From a virus, in IMG/VR virus record IMGVR_UViG_3300042987_002574, positions 1 through 23,453 of that record: a DNA stretch of 23,453 bases, one strand, 5' to 3'. Both the position numbers and the translations under genes were made by a program. The notes under the pieces were generated by a model. The model ran no database searches. It had not been told where the DNA came from and worked only from the letters and a program-made list of their open reading frames with translations. Below are positions 3,495 to 23,453 of this stretch, piece after piece (the first letter of the stretch is position 1; every line of letters begins with the position of its first letter).

Positions 3495-5435
3495 TTAGAA
3501 GTGCGTGATTTGACGTGGGTAGAATGTTCGGCTGACGACGTTTGTTCCGTCGTTTGTTCCTGACCACAAGTTGCCGTCGTCGTAACCCATGTGGAACGTT
3601 CGGCCGTCGTTCATCAAGATGTAGATTGACGACGCAGTTGTTGTGATGTAGCCAGGCACGATGTTGATGATGTTCGCACCGAAGTCTGGAAGCTGCGCGG
3701 TGATCTCGCGCGGATCAGACGATCCGTTTGAGCCGTCGAACAACGTCGAGATCGGAAACTGAGCTTGAGCGATCGTGCCCCAGCCGTAGTAACCCCAAGA
3801 GGCCCAGCGGCCCGTCGTTGTGCGAGCCCACGCGAGGTGGAATCCAGTCGGTGATGTGTTCGAGTCGCCCCATGTCCAGACGCTCTCGATCGAGCCTTGG
3901 AATCCCGCAGGAAGACCGGACACCAGCGTCGGAACCTGGCGGTTCGTCGTCGTTGTGTCGCCGATTTGACGGTATCCGTTGTAGCCCCAGGCGTACAAGA
4001 AGCCGTCCGTAGTTACAGCGTAGAACGTCGCAGATTCGCCGCCTGACGACCAAAGCTTAGACCATGTCTTACCAGCAGGCTTTGTGACGACCTGCCAGAT
4101 CGCGGACGTCTGCCCGTCAGCACCACCGATACCAAGCTGACCGTGGAGCGACTGGCCTGCCGTGTAGATCTCGCCGTTGGTCATCAAGATAGCAGTGACG
4201 ACACCGTTGTTGTCGTTTCCGCCGACCGGCATGCAGATGTCGACCGGAGTGACGCCTGCACCGATGAGAGACTCGAGCTGCGTAAGACGCTGCGGAGTGT
4301 TCTGCTGCGCTGTTGTGTTCAGACCGAGCTGGTTGCGCGTCGGTGCGCCCCAGCCGAAGATCTGACCCGCAGAGTTCCACGCGATGATGATCGCGTTGTT
4401 GATCGCGCACTTGTTGCTGAACTGGTACCCGGTGATCGTCGCGCCACCAGAGTTGAGCGTCGCGGCGCCGATGCGCGTCCACGACGTGCGGTTCGTGGTG
4501 TCGCCTTGTCCGAGAAGACCTGCGCCGTTGTAGCCTGCGCCGTACATCTCGCCTTCAGACGTGCGAACAAGGAACGGAGTCGTGAGGCCGTCCGAGCCCG
4601 AGAAGATCTTGCCGATCTTGACGTCGACCGCGGTGCGGCCGGTGCTCGGACCAAAGTACGCCGAGCGCGTGAAGATCTGGCGTGTTGTCGTGTCACCGAA
4701 ACCGAACTGGCCGTAGCCGTTGTACCCTGTGAAGTAGAGACGACCTTTCGTCGTGACCGCGACGGCCGAAGCGTAGTTGCGGACGACGTATGCGAAATAC
4801 TCGTCTGCGTCAAGCGCGGTATCGAACTGGCAATACTGCCCGGTAGTAGCGCGGCTTCCTGGATAGGTAGAAGTACTGATCTGGTCTGAGAAGTGACCGA
4901 AGCCGAGGCTCTGGTACCACTGGTAGCCGACAGCCTTGATGTTCTTGCGGTCTTGAGTGATCATGAACAAGTTGCCGTAGCCAGGATTTGCGCCGTTGTT
5001 GCACATGTGCAAGCCGCCGACCGCATAGCCTGCAGTCTGTCGACCGTACTGTGACGCGCTGTTCAGCAAAGAAACAGCTCCGGTGTACGTCGAGTAGTTC
5101 GGACGACCGCTCTTGTCCTGCCAGTACGGATCGCCTGTTGTGCCCTGCGTTGTGAGGACCTGGCCAGCAGTGCCAGCCGCGAGTCGTGTGAGACCAGAAG
5201 CGCCGCGGTAGACGATGTCACCGCGTGTTGTGACGACGCTTGATGCGCCGCGCGACAGGTAGTTCCAGTTCGCGTTGAGCGCGCCGCCAGAAAGCGGCTG
5301 AGCGTTTGTGTTGTCGGCTACAGCAACGAACGAGTCGCCGTTGAGGTACACCGCGTCATTGACCGTGTAGGCCGTAGCGCTCGACCACGTGCCACGCCAG
5401 TTGAGACGGATTTTTCCAAGATTGATCGTTGCCAT
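3495..5435 (-). CDS. Tail fiber/adhesin with RCC1-type beta-propeller (646 aa)
   Basis: Paralog of the 778-aa protein without the extra beta-sandwich. Residues 1-60 are the shared N-terminal module (LNWRGTWSSATAYTVNDAVY), then GDIVYRGASGLTRLAAG...LTTQGTTGDPYW at about 72-106, a module widespread in phage structural proteins. From about residue 155 to the end, seven or eight RCC1-like repeats are visible (IKAVGYQWYQSLGFG, GRLYFTGYNGYGQFGFGD, GEMYGAGYNGAGLLGQGD, IFGWGAPTRNQLG, GEIYTAGQSLHGQLG, GFLYAWGYNGYRQIGD, WASWGYYGWG, TFHMGYDD). RCC1 repeats fold as a seven-bladed beta-propeller; in a phage fiber the propeller is likely the host-binding tip, which is inference. AAGGA 7 bases before the ATG is a good ribosome-binding site, and the stop codon overlaps the next gene's Shine-Dalgarno sequence. 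Confidence 0.88.
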   Translation of the reverse strand: MATINLGKIRLNWRGTWSSATAYTVNDAVYLNGDSFVAVADNTNAQPLSGGALNANWNYLSRGASSVVTTRGDIVYRGASGLTRLAAGTAGQVLTTQGTTGDPYWQDKSGRPNYSTYTGAVSLLNSASQYGRQTAGYAVGGLHMCNNGANPGYGNLFMITQDRKNIKAVGYQWYQSLGFGHFSDQISTSTYPGSRATTGQYCQFDTALDADEYFAYVVRNYASAVAVTTKGRLYFTGYNGYGQFGFGDTTTRQIFTRSAYFGPSTGRTAVDVKIGKIFSGSDGLTTPFLVRTSEGEMYGAGYNGAGLLGQGDTTNRTSWTRIGAATLNSGGATITGYQFSNKCAINNAIIIAWNSAGQIFGWGAPTRNQLGLNTTAQQNTPQRLTQLESLIGAGVTPVDICMPVGGNDNNGVVTAILMTNGEIYTAGQSLHGQLGIGGADGQTSAIWQVVTKPAGKTWSKLWSSGGESATFYAVTTDGFLYAWGYNGYRQIGDTTTTNRQVPTLVSGLPAGFQGSIESVWTWGDSNTSPTGFHLAWARTTTGRWASWGYYGWGTIAQAQFPISTLFDGSNGSSDPREITAQLPDFGANIINIVPGYITTTASSIYILMNDGRTFHMGYDDGNLWSGTNDGTNVVSRTFYPRQITHF

Positions 5436-18020: not shown

Positions 18021-19037
18021 TCAGTCGAGCCAGATGACGTATTCTGCCGTCACTCGACCTTTGTCTGGATCGACGAAGTGAATACGTTGCGACGGTCTGC
18101 CGATCGCGGCGACGAACTCTCGAGCGTACTCGTTGCCGGACTCAGGAGAGCCAGTCACGAACACTCGACCGCCGTTCGCCATCGTCAGCGCCATCGGCGT
18201 GTGCCAGTGACCCATGTAGACGTCTTGGAAGTCTTCGACCACTCCTGTCGCCCAGGCATTCGCCTTGCGGAGAATACCGAACGCCGGCGTGTTGCCGCCG
18301 AAGCTCTTGATCTCGTCGCCGTGCACCAGCAACGCTTTGTAGTTGCCGATAGTGACGATTTGATACCAGTCACCTGACATCTGCCACGTGACGTTCTTCA
18401 GATCTTTTGTTCTGTCTTGACAGATCCGGTACGCCATCGCGTCGATGTTGTCACCTGACGGAAGTTCTCCCTTACGACCGAGACGACCGTGGTTGCCGAA
18501 CTCGCAGACGATCGAGACCTTCTCGAAAGTCGATGAAAACGAGCGGACCATCTTTTCCATGATCCGCGCGGCTTCGAAGAGCTGCTCGAACAGATGCGCC
18601 TCTACTTCCCAGGCTTGCCCGGGAAAGATCGTGATGCCTTCGACCATGTCTCCGCCGAAAAGAAGACATAGCTCTCTGACCGGGTGATGGCTCTGCTGGA
18701 TCGTCGAAAGTTCGTTGACCTTCACGATCATTTGATCCATACGAGCGGCGCAGGTAGTCATGCCGTACGAGACGGTCTTCTTTCCAAGCTGCCAGTCGGT
18801 GGCGTGAACTACTGCAACCTCGCCTTTGCCTTTGCGAGGATCTTTAGCTGGTGGCTTTTGCTTGTCTGGGATCCCTCGGCCGGCGGCGATGCCTGCATCG
18901 TACGCTGCCTTATAGACTGCTTCTACAAGTTCTTCGTTCTTGCGCTTGGCCTTGTATTCAGAAGCCTGGGCGGTCTTTAGAGCTCTTCGGAGATCTGCTA
19001 TCTCTTCCTCGAGCTTGATCTCATCCTCAAGACTCAT
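18021..19037 (-). CDS. Calcineurin-like metallophosphoesterase with N-terminal coiled coil (338 aa)
   Basis: Residues 1-45 are a charged heptad-like helix (EDEIKLEEEIADLRRALKTAQ), followed by a Lys/Pro-rich linker (57-72). The catalytic domain shows the metallophosphoesterase motifs in order: D81-W-Q83 (DxQ in place of the usual DxH), GGD130, GNH (181-183), HGD (239-241) and GHWH (276-279). The family binds two metal ions and cleaves phosphodiester or phosphomonoester bonds. Phage members are often predicted nucleases or phosphatases, and the substrate here is unknown. The ATG overlaps the previous gene's stop (ATGA), so the two are probably co-translated. The protein is likely cytoplasmic and acts on nucleic acid or nucleotides, by inference. 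Confidence 0.88.
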   Translation of the reverse strand: MSLEDEIKLEEEIADLRRALKTAQASEYKAKRKNEELVEAVYKAAYDAGIAAGRGIPDKQKPPAKDPRKGKGEVAVVHATDWQLGKKTVSYGMTTCAARMDQMIVKVNELSTIQQSHHPVRELCLLFGGDMVEGITIFPGQAWEVEAHLFEQLFEAARIMEKMVRSFSSTFEKVSIVCEFGNHGRLGRKGELPSGDNIDAMAYRICQDRTKDLKNVTWQMSGDWYQIVTIGNYKALLVHGDEIKSFGGNTPAFGILRKANAWATGVVEDFQDVYMGHWHTPMALTMANGGRVFVTGSPESGNEYAREFVAAIGRPSQRIHFVDPDKGRVTAEYVIWLD

Positions 19038-19273
19038 TTGATCTTCGTCGAGAGTTCTCCTCGACGATACCTCGAAATGACTGACGAGGCGAGCTTATGT
19101 CCTCTGCGCGCCATTGCCTTTGAGATTCGCGAAGCCGAGATCGCGTGGTCGTCGAGCGCTGCCAGCAGATCTTTTCTGTCTGACGGCTCGAGTGCCTCTA
19201 GTATCTCGGCGATTCGTGACCTGTTTCCAGGGTGAATCTCCGTTTCTTGGATCTCCTTGAGAAGATCGCCCAT
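19034..19273 (-). CDS. Small HTH-like DNA-binding protein (79 aa)
   Basis: The frame is open to an ATG at 19309 (91 aa), but the ATG at 19273 has a strong GGGAGG Shine-Dalgarno sequence 7 bases upstream and is preferred. The longer form could still be made from a leaderless transcript. The product is helical and basic at its C-terminus: SRIAEILEALEPSDRKDLLAALDD, then ISASRISKAMARRGHKLASSVISRYRRGE. The second part fits a helix-turn-helix (RISKAMARRG..LASSVISRYRR), as in small DNA-binding proteins found beside phage replication or packaging genes. It overlaps the metallophosphoesterase start by four bases. A regulator of the divergent promoter region is possible, unproven. Confidence 0.72.
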   Translation of the reverse strand: MGDLLKEIQETEIHPGNRSRIAEILEALEPSDRKDLLAALDDHAISASRISKAMARRGHKLASSVISRYRRGELSTKIK

Positions 19274-19309
19274 AACCGTACCTCCCATGATTTGGCCGGT
19301 GTTTGTCAT

Positions 19310-19430
19310 TAGTCACTATATCATACTCATTGTCATCGCGTGTGAACTATCAACAAATTCTTTGTAAGCTCATCTATGTCTTCTTTTTTGTCCACATTCA
19401 CGCTTCAACGCGAAGCTTGGTGTATTATGA
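19310..19430. promoter_or_regulatory. Divergent promoter region between HTH-like gene and primase-helicase
   Basis: On the minus strand TGATATAGT (19323-19315) is an extended -10 for the HTH-like/metallophosphoesterase pair, with an overlapping TATGAT alternative. On the plus strand TATTAT (19423-19428) is a -10 candidate for the primase, with no clear -35. A short inverted repeat, GCTTC and GAAGC separated by five bases (about 19402-19416), lies just upstream of that element and could be an operator. The region is notably AT-richer than the flanking genes. Confidence 0.5.
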
Positions 19431-22118
19431 ATGACCTACACAACAAATAGCGCGGCCAGAAGCTTCGCACATCTCTCAACCGAAAGAAGATCTCTCGCTT
19501 CAATGACAACATGGGAATCAGCAACTGGTAGACTGGGTTCAGCTGCCGAATGGTACGCACAGCAGGGCTGGTTCGTCATGCCTTGCTACGGCATTGTCGG
19601 CGGACGCTGCACGTGCGGCGGATCGCACCCCGAGCCGAAAGACGTAGGCAAGCATCCTCGCGTAAGCGAGTGGAACGTGCAGGCGACTGCGAACATCGAC
19701 GCAGTCAAAACGTGGTGGACACAAGACCAAGACAGCAACGTCAGCGTGTACTGCCGACCGAGCGGATTCTTTGTCATCGACATCGATCCGAGAGCGGGTG
19801 GGCCTGACTCGTTTGAAAAGTTTGAGTCTCTTGTAGAAGGTGCGCTTCCGCCAACAGTTGAGGCGATCACTGGCTCGTACACCGCGAACGGCAAGATTAT
19901 TCGAGGCAGACATCTTTTCTACAAGTGCGACGAATCAGAGTCGCTAGTTGGCAATCTCAAGAAGTCTGGTCTAAACGGCATCGACATCAAGCACAACGGT
20001 TACGTGCTTATCGCGCCGTCACGACATTTCTCTGGCGTGTGCTACGAGTGGGTGCAAGGCAAAGCGCCTTGGGAGATCCCAGTCGCGCAGGCACCAGAAG
20101 AGCTGCTGTCGGCGCTAAGAAAGCGCGGAAAGCGAGCTACATCCAAACTGGGCGAAGGCGATTGGACTTGGCTCGAAGACGCAGACTTCTCTGGCGAGAG
20201 AGTCGACGTTGACAGGCTTCTTACTGAAGGCATCGACGAAGGCTCTCGCGCCGTTGACATCTACGCACTCGCGTGCGCTCTCGCTAACAAGTTTCCTGTG
20301 AACACCGAGGCAGGTCGCCTAGCAGTTGAGACAATGATGATTCGCTTCAACGCCGAGAAAGTACGTCCACCGCTCGAGCTCGAAGGACAGGGCGGACTGT
20401 TGATGCATGTTCGTCGCGCTATCCAGTTCGTTGTTGACAACCCAAAGACAGAGAAGCTGTGGCCAGGTCTGCAAGACTGGGCGATCAAGTCGCAGGAAGA
20501 AACGCGAGCTAAGTCAGGCATGACAACGACGTCAATCGTCGCACGGCCTCCTACTCAGTCGGACACAACTTACTTGCCTGGCACGATCGGCGGGACAGTG
20601 TCCGCGGCATTACAAGACGGTGACTCACTTGCAAAGGCGACAAGCCTGACGAACATCGACGTACCGCAAGACCCAGACGCGATCAGCGAAGAAGAAGGCG
20701 GCGAACCTGGCAAGCGAACGCTCACCGACACCGGCAACGGTCGTCGACTCGTCGACTCGTTTGGCGCCGCGGTCAGATACACTCCAGGTCTAGGCTGGTT
20801 TCACTGGGACGGCGGATACTGGAAGCCAGACGTCGAGAGCCTTGAGATGCAAGAACTTGCAAAGAAGATCGCGCCTATTGTCGCAAGCGAGGTTGTCCAC
20901 TATCTCGACGACGCAGACAAGCAGTCAGAGGTAATCAAGTGGGCGCAGCAGGCGAAGTCAAACTCGCGCATAACGTCTTGCATCGAGAGCGCCACTTCGG
21001 ACCCGCGAATCTTGGTTGGCGTCAACAACTGGGACTCTGACGAGACTCTTCTTGGCGTAGCCAACGGAGTGATCAATCTCCGCACCGGTGAGCTCTTGAA
21101 AGGACGCCCGGATCTCTACATCACTCGCCGCGCGCCGGTCGCGTACAATCCTGGAATACGCAATATCCGCTGGGAACAGTTCATTGACTTCGCGACAGGA
21201 GGCGACAAAGAGCTTCAGGAATGGCTGCAACGAGCGGCTGGATACTCGCTTACTGGACTGCGCACATACGACGTTATGTTCCTAGTCTATGGTCCTCCAG
21301 GATCAGGCAAGAACACGATGGTTGAAGCGCTGGTGAAAGCTCTCGGTACTGCGCAGTACGCGTGGCCGTTAGACTCAAGTATTCTTGCTCAAGGCGACGG
21401 ACAGGCACACGGAGCCGACCTGTATCACTGGGCAGAGCTTCGCGGACGCCGCATGGTGTGGGTCGACGAGTTGCCAGAGTCAGAGCGCATGAAAGAGAAC
21501 TCGGTCAAGAAACTGACAGGCTCTTCTGAGATCTCAGCGCGTTCGCCAGGCGAAAAGCCGTTTACGTTCCAGTCACAGGCGAAGCTGTGGGTCACCACAA
21601 ACCACAGGCCGATCATCAGCGACGACGCGATGTGGCGCCGACTTCGTCCGATACCGCTCACAAACATTCCAGAAAATCCAGACCCAGACCTCAAGCACTA
21701 CATCTTTGATCCAGAAGGCGCACTGCCGGCGGTGCTGTCGTGGGCAGTCGAAGGCGCGATCAAGCTTCTTAGTTCGAGCGCACGCGATGCTCTTGGCTGG
21801 TGCACCGCAGTCAGCGACGCTGCTGAGATCTACCGTAAGAACGAAGACCGCATCGGATTCTTCTTGAACGAAGAGACCAAAGAGTCAGAAGGCGCGGCTA
21901 CACCTGTAAAGTCACTGTACGCGGTCTACCGTATCTGGTCAGAAGAACGAGGCGAGAAGCCAATGACACAGATCGCATTTCAGCGCAAGTTGCAAGACAG
22001 AGGCATCGCCGTTGAAGGCCACGGATCACGCGCGCAGTTGATGGGCCGTTTGCTGATGCCGAGAGTGGTGCCGCAAGGTGAGGTTGACTGGGGAATCGCT
22101 ACAAGATTCGCTAGATAA
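19431..22118 (+). CDS. Bifunctional prim-pol / SF3 (D5-like) primase-helicase (895 aa)
   Basis: The N-terminal part (about 30-240) is an archaeo-eukaryotic primase-type prim-pol domain: AAEWYAQQGWFVMP, the catalytic pair D117-I-D119 in FFVIDIDP, GRHLFYK, and GIDIKHNGYVLIAPSRH with YEW after it. A linker and a D5_N-like region follow. The C-terminal superfamily 3 helicase has Walker A GPPGSGKN at 621-628, Walker B VWVDELPES, and a motif C-like LWVTTNHRP, then RRLRPIPL. The enzyme would prime and unwind phage DNA during replication in the cytoplasm. No ribosome-binding site precedes the ATG at 19431, and a -10 candidate ends two bases before it. The ATG at 19503 (residue 25) is therefore a serious alternative start giving 871 aa. 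This is the only plus-strand gene I accept. Confidence 0.92.
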   Translation: MTYTTNSAARSFAHLSTERRSLASMTTWESATGRLGSAAEWYAQQGWFVMPCYGIVGGRCTCGGSHPEPKDVGKHPRVSEWNVQATANIDAVKTWWTQDQDSNVSVYCRPSGFFVIDIDPRAGGPDSFEKFESLVEGALPPTVEAITGSYTANGKIIRGRHLFYKCDESESLVGNLKKSGLNGIDIKHNGYVLIAPSRHFSGVCYEWVQGKAPWEIPVAQAPEELLSALRKRGKRATSKLGEGDWTWLEDADFSGERVDVDRLLTEGIDEGSRAVDIYALACALANKFPVNTEAGRLAVETMMIRFNAEKVRPPLELEGQGGLLMHVRRAIQFVVDNPKTEKLWPGLQDWAIKSQEETRAKSGMTTTSIVARPPTQSDTTYLPGTIGGTVSAALQDGDSLAKATSLTNIDVPQDPDAISEEEGGEPGKRTLTDTGNGRRLVDSFGAAVRYTPGLGWFHWDGGYWKPDVESLEMQELAKKIAPIVASEVVHYLDDADKQSEVIKWAQQAKSNSRITSCIESATSDPRILVGVNNWDSDETLLGVANGVINLRTGELLKGRPDLYITRRAPVAYNPGIRNIRWEQFIDFATGGDKELQEWLQRAAGYSLTGLRTYDVMFLVYGPPGSGKNTMVEALVKALGTAQYAWPLDSSILAQGDGQAHGADLYHWAELRGRRMVWVDELPESERMKENSVKKLTGSSEISARSPGEKPFTFQSQAKLWVTTNHRPIISDDAMWRRLRPIPLTNIPENPDPDLKHYIFDPEGALPAVLSWAVEGAIKLLSSSARDALGWCTAVSDAAEIYRKNEDRIGFFLNEETKESEGAATPVKSLYAVYRIWSEERGEKPMTQIAFQRKLQDRGIAVEGHGSRAQLMGRLLMPRVVPQGEVDWGIATRFAR

Positions 22119-22148
22119 GTTTCTTCGCTCGGGGAGAGACGGGCGCTG

Positions 22149-22195
22149 AAAAAACGAGCCGGGATTCTGAGACGAGAGACTCAGGGTCCCGGCTC
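22149..22195 (-). terminator. Rho-independent terminator of the recombinase gene
   Basis: The hairpin at 22156-22195 has 9 perfect outer pairs (GAGCCGGGA with TCCCGGCTC), a two-base internal mismatch, 5 more pairs (CTGAG with CTCAG) and an 8-base loop. On the minus strand it is followed by GTTTTTTC, a U-run. The recombinase stop codon lies inside the hairpin. On the plus strand no T-run follows, so it is best read as a minus-strand terminator, though it may also slow convergent transcripts from the primase gene. Confidence 0.9.
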
Positions 22196-22903
22196 AACTA
22201 CTTTGTTGTGCTTTCCTTTGAGAAGTACGTGAGACACGCTAGACGCATACCACTTCTTTCCGCCGTTGCTAGTTGAGACCTCAAGCTCGTTGAGCTTTCG
22301 CGCGATCTCTGAGTAGCTGATCCCAGAAGCTCGCCACTGTGTCATCACGTTGAGGACTTCGGCAGGGATCTTTGTCTTAGGACCTTTGTCCTTGCCCCAG
22401 ACAACTCCGTTAGCTCGGCGATCTTTATGGACATCTTTCTGCCGCTCGGCGATAATCGCTCGCTCCATCTCTGCAAGAGCTGACATGATTGTGACAACAA
22501 ACCGTCCTTGGTACGTAGAGGTGTCGAGGTTGAGGTCGAGCATGACCACGCGCCAGTTGTTCTTATTCGCTCGGTCGATGATCGACAGGAAGTCTTGAGT
22601 AGACCTGGCAAGTCGGTCGACCCTTGTGACGATCAGCGCTTCTGCCTCGCCGCGGTCTAAGCGCTCGAGAGCAGACGAGAGAACTGGACGGCCTTTGATA
22701 CTTTTACCAGATCTGCCCTCTTCCCTGAGAAGCTCTGTCTTCTTGTACCCGATGTCGCTAGCAGCCTTCTTGAGAGCTCGCTCCTGCACGGCAAGAGACA
22801 TTCCGTCGTTTACTTGCATAGAAGTGGACACTCTTGTATACAGTAACGCGACTTTCTTTGATGACTTGCTAGTTTCCATATCCAGTAAGGCTTTCCGGGA
22901 CAA
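22181..22903 (-). CDS. Serine recombinase, resolvase/invertase family (about 232-240 aa)
   Basis: The N-terminal catalytic domain is clear: YTRVSTSMQ with the nucleophile Ser26, TRVDRLARST with the active-site arginines 97 and 100, EEGRSGKSIKGRP, and the long E-helix GRFVVTIMSALAEMERAIIAERQ. The remaining 70 residues hold a short Recombinase/HTH-like segment (GISYSEIARKLNELEVST...KKWYASSVSHVL) that would bind DNA. The length is between small invertases (about 190 aa) and large integrases (over 450 aa). A TTG at 22903 gives 240 aa, but the ATG at 22879 (232 aa) has GGAAAG upstream and is as likely. It cuts and rejoins DNA at short dyad sites; resolution, inversion or insertion cannot be told apart here. 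Confidence 0.9.
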   Translation of the reverse strand: MSRKALLDMETSKSSKKVALLYTRVSTSMQVNDGMSLAVQERALKKAASDIGYKKTELLREEGRSGKSIKGRPVLSSALERLDRGEAEALIVTRVDRLARSTQDFLSIIDRANKNNWRVVMLDLNLDTSTYQGRFVVTIMSALAEMERAIIAERQKDVHKDRRANGVVWGKDKGPKTKIPAEVLNVMTQWRASGISYSEIARKLNELEVSTSNGGKKWYASSVSHVLLKGKHNKVVEPGP

Positions 22904-22986
22904 TCTTGTACAAAACTCGTTGGCTACACTCTAACACACCTAAGTTTAGGCGTGTACACAGGAAACCGTTGTCCAGTATGGACTTT
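22904..22986 (-). promoter_or_regulatory. Recombinase leader with 22-bp dyad and extended -10
   Basis: At 22934-22955 two 10-bp arms, ACACACCTAA and TTAGGCGTGT, form an inverted repeat with one mismatch around a central GT. On the minus strand TGTTAGAGT (22936-22928) fits an extended -10 and abuts the dyad, so the dyad would occupy the spacer of the recombinase promoter. It could be an autoregulatory operator, a recombination site, or both. A second small dyad, GTCCA-GTA-TGGAC (22971-22983), is followed by five T on the plus strand. Confidence 0.45.
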
Positions 22987-23453
22987 TTAGGCAAATCCGC
23001 CGGCGTTTGTAAAGTTGGCCGAGTTCAACGAAACCTTCTGCCAGGTGTTAGTTGCTGTGCAAATGTACAAAGTTCCACTGGCATCGTCAATACATATTTC
23101 ACCAAGTGTGCCTGTTGAAGTCTTTGATGCTGGATACCCAGATTTATAGGCAATGCCAGTTACGGCAATGGCATTTTTGTTCTTCCAAAGACTTGTAGCA
23201 GTTTCATATACCAACAGTTGCTTGTCTTGTAAACCATTGATCAAGACGTTGTGAAGTTCTTGCACTTCAAAGCCATTCTGTGGCCTGACAAAGATCTCTC
23301 CGTTGTTCTGCTGCTTTCGAGTAACAATACCGATAAATACAAGATGATTAGGCGCGACTGGTTTGTTTGCGAGACCAAAAATCAGATTTCCATCATCACC
23401 GAGCCAAATTGGATCTCCAGCGGCGTTGGCAGCAGAAGTGTCAAGTCCTTCAA
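22987..23453 (-). CDS. Phage virion structural protein, C-terminal part (5' end off window)
   Basis: The frame is open from the right edge to a TAA at 22987, giving 155 visible residues. Features include DPIWLGDDGNLIFGLANKP, APNHLVFIGIVTRKQ, NGEIFVRPQNGFEVQELHNV, KNKNAIAVTGIAY and a C-terminus GEICIDDASGTLYICT...WQKVSLN. The segment around QNGFEVQELHNV is characteristic of virion structural proteins in marine and freshwater phages, where it sits in large tail or fiber-associated proteins of unassigned biochemical role. Codon use and base composition are AT-richer than in the rest of the window (more ATT, AAT, AAA, TTT). No internal ATG is a convincing start; the gene must begin outside the window. 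Confidence 0.82.
   Translation of the reverse strand, partial: EGLDTSAANAAGDPIWLGDDGNLIFGLANKPVAPNHLVFIGIVTRKQQNNGEIFVRPQNGFEVQELHNVLINGLQDKQLLVYETATSLWKNKNAIAVTGIAYKSGYPASKTSTGTLGEICIDDASGTLYICTATNTWQKVSLNSANFTNAGGFA

Follow-up and report, generated by a model that had tools for sequence, protein, structure and literature searches.

Phage P1 carries a single lox site per genome, beside the gene for the tyrosine recombinase Cre, and plasmid res is likewise a single-site system; res and lox join sites on different genome copies. Hin, Gin and Cin act at hix, gix and cix sites of 26 bp, in which 12-bp arms flank a 2-bp centre. For small serine resolvases, our basis of comparison is the architecture of Sin and Tn3 res as given in PMC9943657. 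In the large serine integrase LI, the recombinase domain spans half-site positions 1–12, helix αH contacts positions 9–11, and productive alignment of serine-integrase sites hinges on the central dinucleotide, according to PMC3783163.

We analysed 23,453 nt of viral DNA (IMG/VR record IMGVR_UViG_3300042987_002574, positions 1–23,453; hereafter the window), in which a compact serine recombinase gene adjoins a 26-bp dyad. We read this dyad, with a probability of about 0.7, as the adjacent enzyme's own core recombination site, a res/lox-like site I. The locus comprises:

19431–22118, plus strand: Prim-Pol/D5 primase-helicase gene, convergent with the recombinase gene
22181–22879, minus strand: serine recombinase gene from its ATG start; the open reading frame can begin at TTG 22903
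22871–22894, minus strand: second B-like box, AAAGCCTTACTGGATATGGAAACT, at the recombinase start codon
22907–22913, minus strand: putative accessory motif TTGTACA, separated from the dyad by 18 bp towards the recombinase
22932–22957, minus strand: 26-bp dyad, predicted crossover site (site I), with 12-bp arms and core GT at 22944–22945
22962–22985, minus strand: B box, an imperfect dyad, AAGTCCATACTGGACAACGGTTTC, 4 bp beyond the 26-bp dyad
22987–23453, minus strand: 3' end of a collagen-like tail gene, which is complete in L002 and replaced by unrelated genes in close relatives

The recombinase consists of a resolvase catalytic domain (PF00239, E = 3.5e-35) followed by the first ~50 positions of an LSR-type Recombinase domain, where it ends at ~230 aa. 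The DNA-binding part matches positions 4–49 of the 102 in PF07508 (Recombinase) and no other family; a C-terminal resolvase HTH domain is absent, and the protein shows neither a zinc-ribbon family match nor a coiled coil. R24, S26, R94 and R97, which we take to be the nucleophilic Ser and the Arg residues of the resolvase catalytic domain, are invariant in 19 recombinase sequences. In an AF2 model (pLDDT 74.5, pTM 0.54), residue 221 (S221 in numbering from TTG 22903) is the second residue of the final helix, 220–230. The recombinase matches 1gdt, 1zr2, 5cy1 and 2r0q in the PDB, with fold matches of the large-serine-integrase type to 9y66, 9dxd and 9iu2. The closest annotated phage is Actinomycetia phage DSL-LC01 (71% recombinase identity), which was assembled from a lake metagenome, with a predicted Actinomycetia host and a lysogenic call by BACPHLIP, as stated in PMC10611076.

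This combination resembles each of the described systems in part. The lone site beside the recombinase recalls Cre/lox, although Cre, as a tyrosine recombinase, has unrelated chemistry. In its 26 bp, 12-bp arms and 2-bp centre the window site is like hix, gix and cix; unlike Hin, Gin and Cin, the present enzymes usually have one site per genome, and an inverted pair was not found. The resolvase catalytic domain and compact protein are shared with Tn3/γδ and Sin resolvases, as are the placing of the dyad, here a predicted crossover site, upstream of the gene, additional elements at fixed distances from it and the 26–28-bp dyad with a 2-bp centre typical of resolvase and invertase sites, these site likenesses being ones of sequence. 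In contrast to res systems, the DNA-binding part here is an LSR-type recombinase domain instead of a resolvase HTH, and the accessory sites are putative. With large serine integrases (LI/A118, Bxb1, SPbeta YokA) the enzyme shares the start of PF07508, related folds and, on the evidence of PMC3783163, a 12-bp half-site, contacts ~9 bp from the core and a central dinucleotide that sets alignment. It differs from them in its ~230 aa with no zinc ribbon or coiled coil, in a 26-bp instead of a ~50-bp site, and in that no prophage was found among the genome matches listed.

The initial annotation had described a dyad at 22934–22955 with 10-base arms, one mismatch and a GT centre, and we confirm it as ACACACCTAA GT TTAGGCGTGT. 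It forms the core of a larger unit, 22932–22957 (two 12-bp arms plus GT), and these 26 bp are the predicted functional unit; on the recombinase strand the core reads AC. The distance given earlier, 31 bases upstream of the gene, was counted to TTG 22903, and relatives indicate ATG 22879 (METSKSSKKVALLY...) as the likelier start. The bare dyad is only mildly unusual, because three dyads with 10-bp arms, at most one mismatch and a 2-bp centre occur in the window against a simulated mean of 0.6 (0.0026 per 100 bp) and maximum of 3 (30 Markov simulations); its weight rests on its place beside the recombinase and on conservation, not on rarity. The annotation had also proposed looking for a second copy, whose absence it counted against a crossover site. 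A search of the window allowing three mismatches returned only 22934–22955 itself (0 expected), and most long relatives lack a second copy as well. We do not take the lone copy as a refutation, because single-site systems exist.

Of 152 viral loci that encode a recombinase relative, the best 80 were sampled, and sites were scored with a weight matrix seeded with 17 of their dyads. One strong dyad (score ≥16) is present in 43 of these best 80 loci, in which the matrix was itself seeded; a strong dyad is absent nearby in 37, four loci having weak matches only (score 12–15). DSL-LC01 holds a dyad of the same family. The family consensus is GTAYAyMCTTAA CN TTAAGGgTGTAC, and in AT-rich clades GTATAAACTTAR NN TTAAGTTTATAC (AT-rich and GC-rich being our own loose clade labels). 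Some dyads lie ~1–1.5 kb upstream of the recombinase with other genes intervening, and in six contigs with no dyad nearby (G023, G027, G028, G029, G030 and G032) one heads another operon elsewhere in the contig. A pattern search for distant dyads matched 7 of 22 records, among them all of these six except G028. A pattern scan returned 91 stretches, and 79 new loci were examined: 31 have a recombinase, which always lies downstream of the dyad and shares its strand, and the remaining 48, L160 excepted, look like chance matches. A second pattern scan gave 44 stretches, of which 39 were examined; in L204 the recombinase is on the other side. Among the papers listed in a literature search, none concerns this recombinase and site family, which does not prove that earlier reports are absent.

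Most genomes carry the site once. A whole-site scan of 16 contigs or contig sets (G017 and G021 over their first 39.9 kb) found one site in 14, weak in G022 and G031, two in G026 and none in G019, with three matches in reversed controls. A looser pattern matched 10 of 12 records (controls, three matches), seven of them at one place and three at two: G048, G026, in which the cores differ, and DSL-LC01, whose second match looks like chance. The looser pattern missed G023 and G028, each of which has one site in the 16-contig scan. Cores also differ within each pair of dyads in G048 (G048:80980 and G048:112479) and G026 (G026:50637 and G026:65587), and such unlike cores may keep paired dyads from recombining together. 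A 29-base pattern spanning the B box and left arm has a single match in each of the close relatives (6/6); with this pattern, and a whole-site scan of two of them, no inverted partner or second copy was found in these six contigs.

Arm sequences follow the DNA-binding domain of the enzyme. In partial Mantel tests (n = 34), dyad distances correlate with those of the DNA-binding domain given the catalytic domain and GC content (r = 0.38, reached by 0 of 3000 permutations; r = 0.37 given the catalytic domain without GC), and not with those of the catalytic domain given the DNA-binding domain and GC (r = −0.04) or of the primase given the DNA-binding domain (r = −0.11). At the level of single positions, residue 221 and base 4 of the arm rank first of 888 residue–position pairs (normalised MI 0.77, next 0.44; APC z 9.8). 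Among half-sites in 36 pairs, Ser goes with C in 25/26, Thr with T in 35/36 and Ala with A in 7/8, while Gly occurs with both T and C; five of the Thr dyads lie at a distance from the recombinase gene. Base 4 of the 12-bp arm is the ninth base counted from the core, within the half-site positions 9–11 contacted in LI integrase by the helix that corresponds to the one bearing residue 221, and positions 4 and 23 are complementary in 41 of 46 unique sites (shuffle mean 20), in contrast to certain other dyad positions, where complementarity does not exceed the shuffle.

The residue-221 prediction, written down beforehand, was carried to another 149 loci, part of them on contigs seen before; the scan was masked at base 4 and the core. 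With no dyad in the locus in 78 of these, 27 pairs were obtained whose dyads lie outside the first 36. Thr was again paired with T (27/28 half-sites); Ser gave C in 12, T in 8 and A in 4 of 24, and Gly gave A twice. Thr gives a robust rule and Ser a loose one, Ser221 being a poor out-of-sample predictor. On the recombinase tree, residue 221 changes at least 8 times and the base pair at least 10 times; a phylogenetic contrast test on this poorly resolved tree yielded four independent contrasts (one on well-supported branches) and had neither significance nor power. Because the arms co-vary with the DNA-binding domain, and residue 221 with base 4, the recombinase very likely binds the dyad, with S221, in the recognition helix, as a predicted specificity residue.

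The central dinucleotide bears on whether the dyad is also cut. Cores in the 46 unique sites are CC (11), GT (9), CT (7), AC (6), CA (4), AG (3), TG (2), GA (2), TT (1) and TC (1). None is palindromic (expected fraction 0.23; naive P = 6e-6, or 0.006 over 24 clusters), nor is any of the 27 in the new pairs, where AA and GG appear newly. Read strand-blind, the 70 distinct kept dyads represent all six non-palindromic core classes and none of the four palindromic ones, a pattern expected once in 210 by our own arithmetic if classes were drawn equally. Before this count, 11 low-similarity matches with no recombinase had been set aside as chance; 4 of these 11 have palindromic cores. Under criteria independent of the core, palindromic cores number 0/35 where the locus holds a recombinase; 0/40 at a core-blind score of at least 22, against 4/18 below it; and 0/31 with a recombinase against 6/48 without one among the 79 pattern-scan loci. 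DNA-binding-domain covariation, never-palindromic cores and a phased TTGTACA favour a crossover site over a plain operator, and the recombinase probably cuts at the dyad.

TTGTACA (or TGTACA) is separated from the kept dyads by 8–9, 18–22 or 30–33 bp and by nothing between, in scans that allowed 0–35; L040, with a gap of 10, was left out of these statistics. Circular R is 0.78 at 10.5 bp and 0.85 at 11 bp (n = 32), with p = 0.0002 for distinct values only. The clusters thus appear roughly one helical turn apart, with gaps of 32–33 departing from strict 10.5-bp phasing. A matrix for the B box, seeded from the window locus, places its best copies mostly at the locus and gives similar scores elsewhere, for example at G023:46035 and G025:33444, so that uniqueness to the locus is not absolute. 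L158 and L128 share every base between the left arm's outer edge and +79. Their right flanks have 93.6% identity across 3.7 kb, while on the left both the B box and the gene diverge. Because this identity starts at the 12-bp arm edge, constraint would begin there. The dyad heads an operon and has the accessory motif on the side facing the genes; certain clades have no recombinase in this operon. We also considered a simple sigma-70 promoter and set it aside: no promoter call falls at the dyad, and the extended −10-like TGATACNTT is limited to AT-rich clades and DSL-LC01.

The site family, its coupling to the DNA-binding domain, the non-palindromic cores, the spacing and the copy number are read from sequence; strand exchange, accessory binding, repression and biological purpose we infer. 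A recombinase dimer would occupy the 26 bp, each subunit reading one 12-bp arm by its helix-turn-helix, with residue 221, where the recognition helix starts, reading arm base 4, nine from the core. The enzyme would cut around the 2-bp GT core, whose asymmetry would set the polarity of the site. Helically phased TTGTACA, together with the flanking B boxes in some clades, may hold a further recombinase dimer or a helper protein. The TTGTACA element lies in the promoter region, and the enzyme probably represses its own operon too, an autoregulation suggested by the promoter-proximal site. The likely job would be joining or resolving sites on different genome copies, as in dimer or concatemer resolution or the circularisation of terminally redundant DNA; between-copy joining is the best remaining use, given that there is usually one site per genome and no close relative in the listed genome matches.

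The initial annotation had proposed either a crossover site or an operator. Recognition by the recombinase, common to both, is well supported by the covariation; the crossover half gains support from the non-palindromic cores where a recombinase is present, recombination itself being unseen, and an operator function may coexist. That the dyad is solely an operator or promoter, bound by the recombinase as an autoregulator of its operon with no strand exchange, we consider unlikely. The position at the head of operons, including recombinase-less ones, the gene-side accessory motif and the −10-like element of AT-rich clades and DSL-LC01 all suit such a role. However, an operator needs no asymmetric centre by our reasoning, and unconstrained central bases are found in the set-aside matches (4/11 palindromic) instead of beside a recombinase (0/35) or in the 70 kept dyads; one or two copies per genome are few for a regulon, and the catalytic residues are invariant.

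An attP through which the phage inserts at a host attB is less probable again. It would explain a lone site beside an enzyme with an LSR-type domain, the intact site in phage contigs and the lysogenic BACPHLIP call for DSL-LC01 in PMC10611076. Yet the best 80 of 108 related stretches, drawn from 84,980 species genomes of bacteria and archaea, reach just 29–41% identity, and the matches listed include no prophage of the lineage, although hosts may be missing from the genome set. An ordinary integrase is disfavoured because these listed matches contain no close relative, and the missing zinc-ribbon match also counts against it. Inversion at a hix/gix-like site, switching the adjacent tail genes, is very improbable: the 26-bp dyad with its 2-bp centre does adjoin variable tail genes, but the flanks vary in gene content, not orientation, the window and six close contigs (whole-site scan of two) lack a second copy, and one site per genome is the usual number. 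Least credible is a role for the dyad in tail-gene RNA, as a transcription terminator or a hairpin. The dyad could fold as a stem-loop downstream of the tail stop codon, but no terminator call or Rfam match coincides with it and its conservation follows the recombinase DNA-binding domain.

Beyond the single site, we put forward as a tentative proposal, more doubtful than the reading of the dyad as site I, that the DSL-LC01-related lineage of large phages uses compact serine recombinases (catalytic plus bare LSR-type domain) as a resolution or circularisation system of the Cre/lox type with one site, mostly next to a replication primase. Dozens of enzyme–site pairs would then have diversified naturally in their half-site codes (residue 221) and in every non-palindromic core class. 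If true, this would provide a collection of compact serine recombinases, diversified in nature and paired with their 26-bp sites, together with an initial rule of specificity, all useful for genome engineering. It would also make testable the question of why large phages with no prophage among the genome matches listed retain a serine recombinase and a single site beside the primase.

Of 81 loci, 75 have a primase relative after the recombinase, and three of the other six end less than 1 kb from the recombinase. GC-rich contig sets have the dyad packed closely with the genes for the recombinase, the primase and the terminase small subunit (DSL-LC01 127932–2844; window 19034–22957). A P1-like site near pac was considered and rejected: as in Cre/lox, the site lies 3.6–6 kb from the terminase small subunit in nine GC-rich contig sets, and only in these; in contrast, AT-rich contigs have no small-terminase match near the site.

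On the opposite side, the sequence of close relatives turns unrelated just outside the B box, with the upstream tail genes replaced, and L007 lacks 2–3 kb of these genes. The breakpoints fall ~25–30 bp outside the dyad, at gene ends and away from the core. No recombined junction at the core, sought as a synteny break, was found in near relatives, where both dyad halves are intact; L002 and L003 differ by three bases in and beside the left arm. The L107 and L118 contigs end inside the left arm, 10–11 bases left of the core, eight other contigs end within ~160 bp left of the dyad and at least one (L191) near its right side. These ends, suggesting population variation of the left flank, fit a variable flank without showing recombination at the core.

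Genes between dyad and recombinase also vary. Compared with L009, L008 (dyad L008:728, recombinase L008:1902) retains the dyad and ~76 bp of an older recombinase 5' end, followed by a cargo gene and then a recombinase with a start like that of L019, in what appears to be a cargo insertion with a 61-bp overlap. Cargo genes differ among L017, L019, L025, L049, L074 and L146 and were named by eye as dioxygenase-like, methyltransferase-like, dNMP-kinase-like and a small HExxH protein; a family search on the last found no family. A strong stem-loop at 22156–22195 of the window, between the convergent recombinase and primase genes, is perhaps a bidirectional terminator. In the tail region of the window, a large protein encoded at 876–3212 matches RCC1-like beta-propeller repeats, and another at 3495–5435 resembles, by eye, its paralogue.
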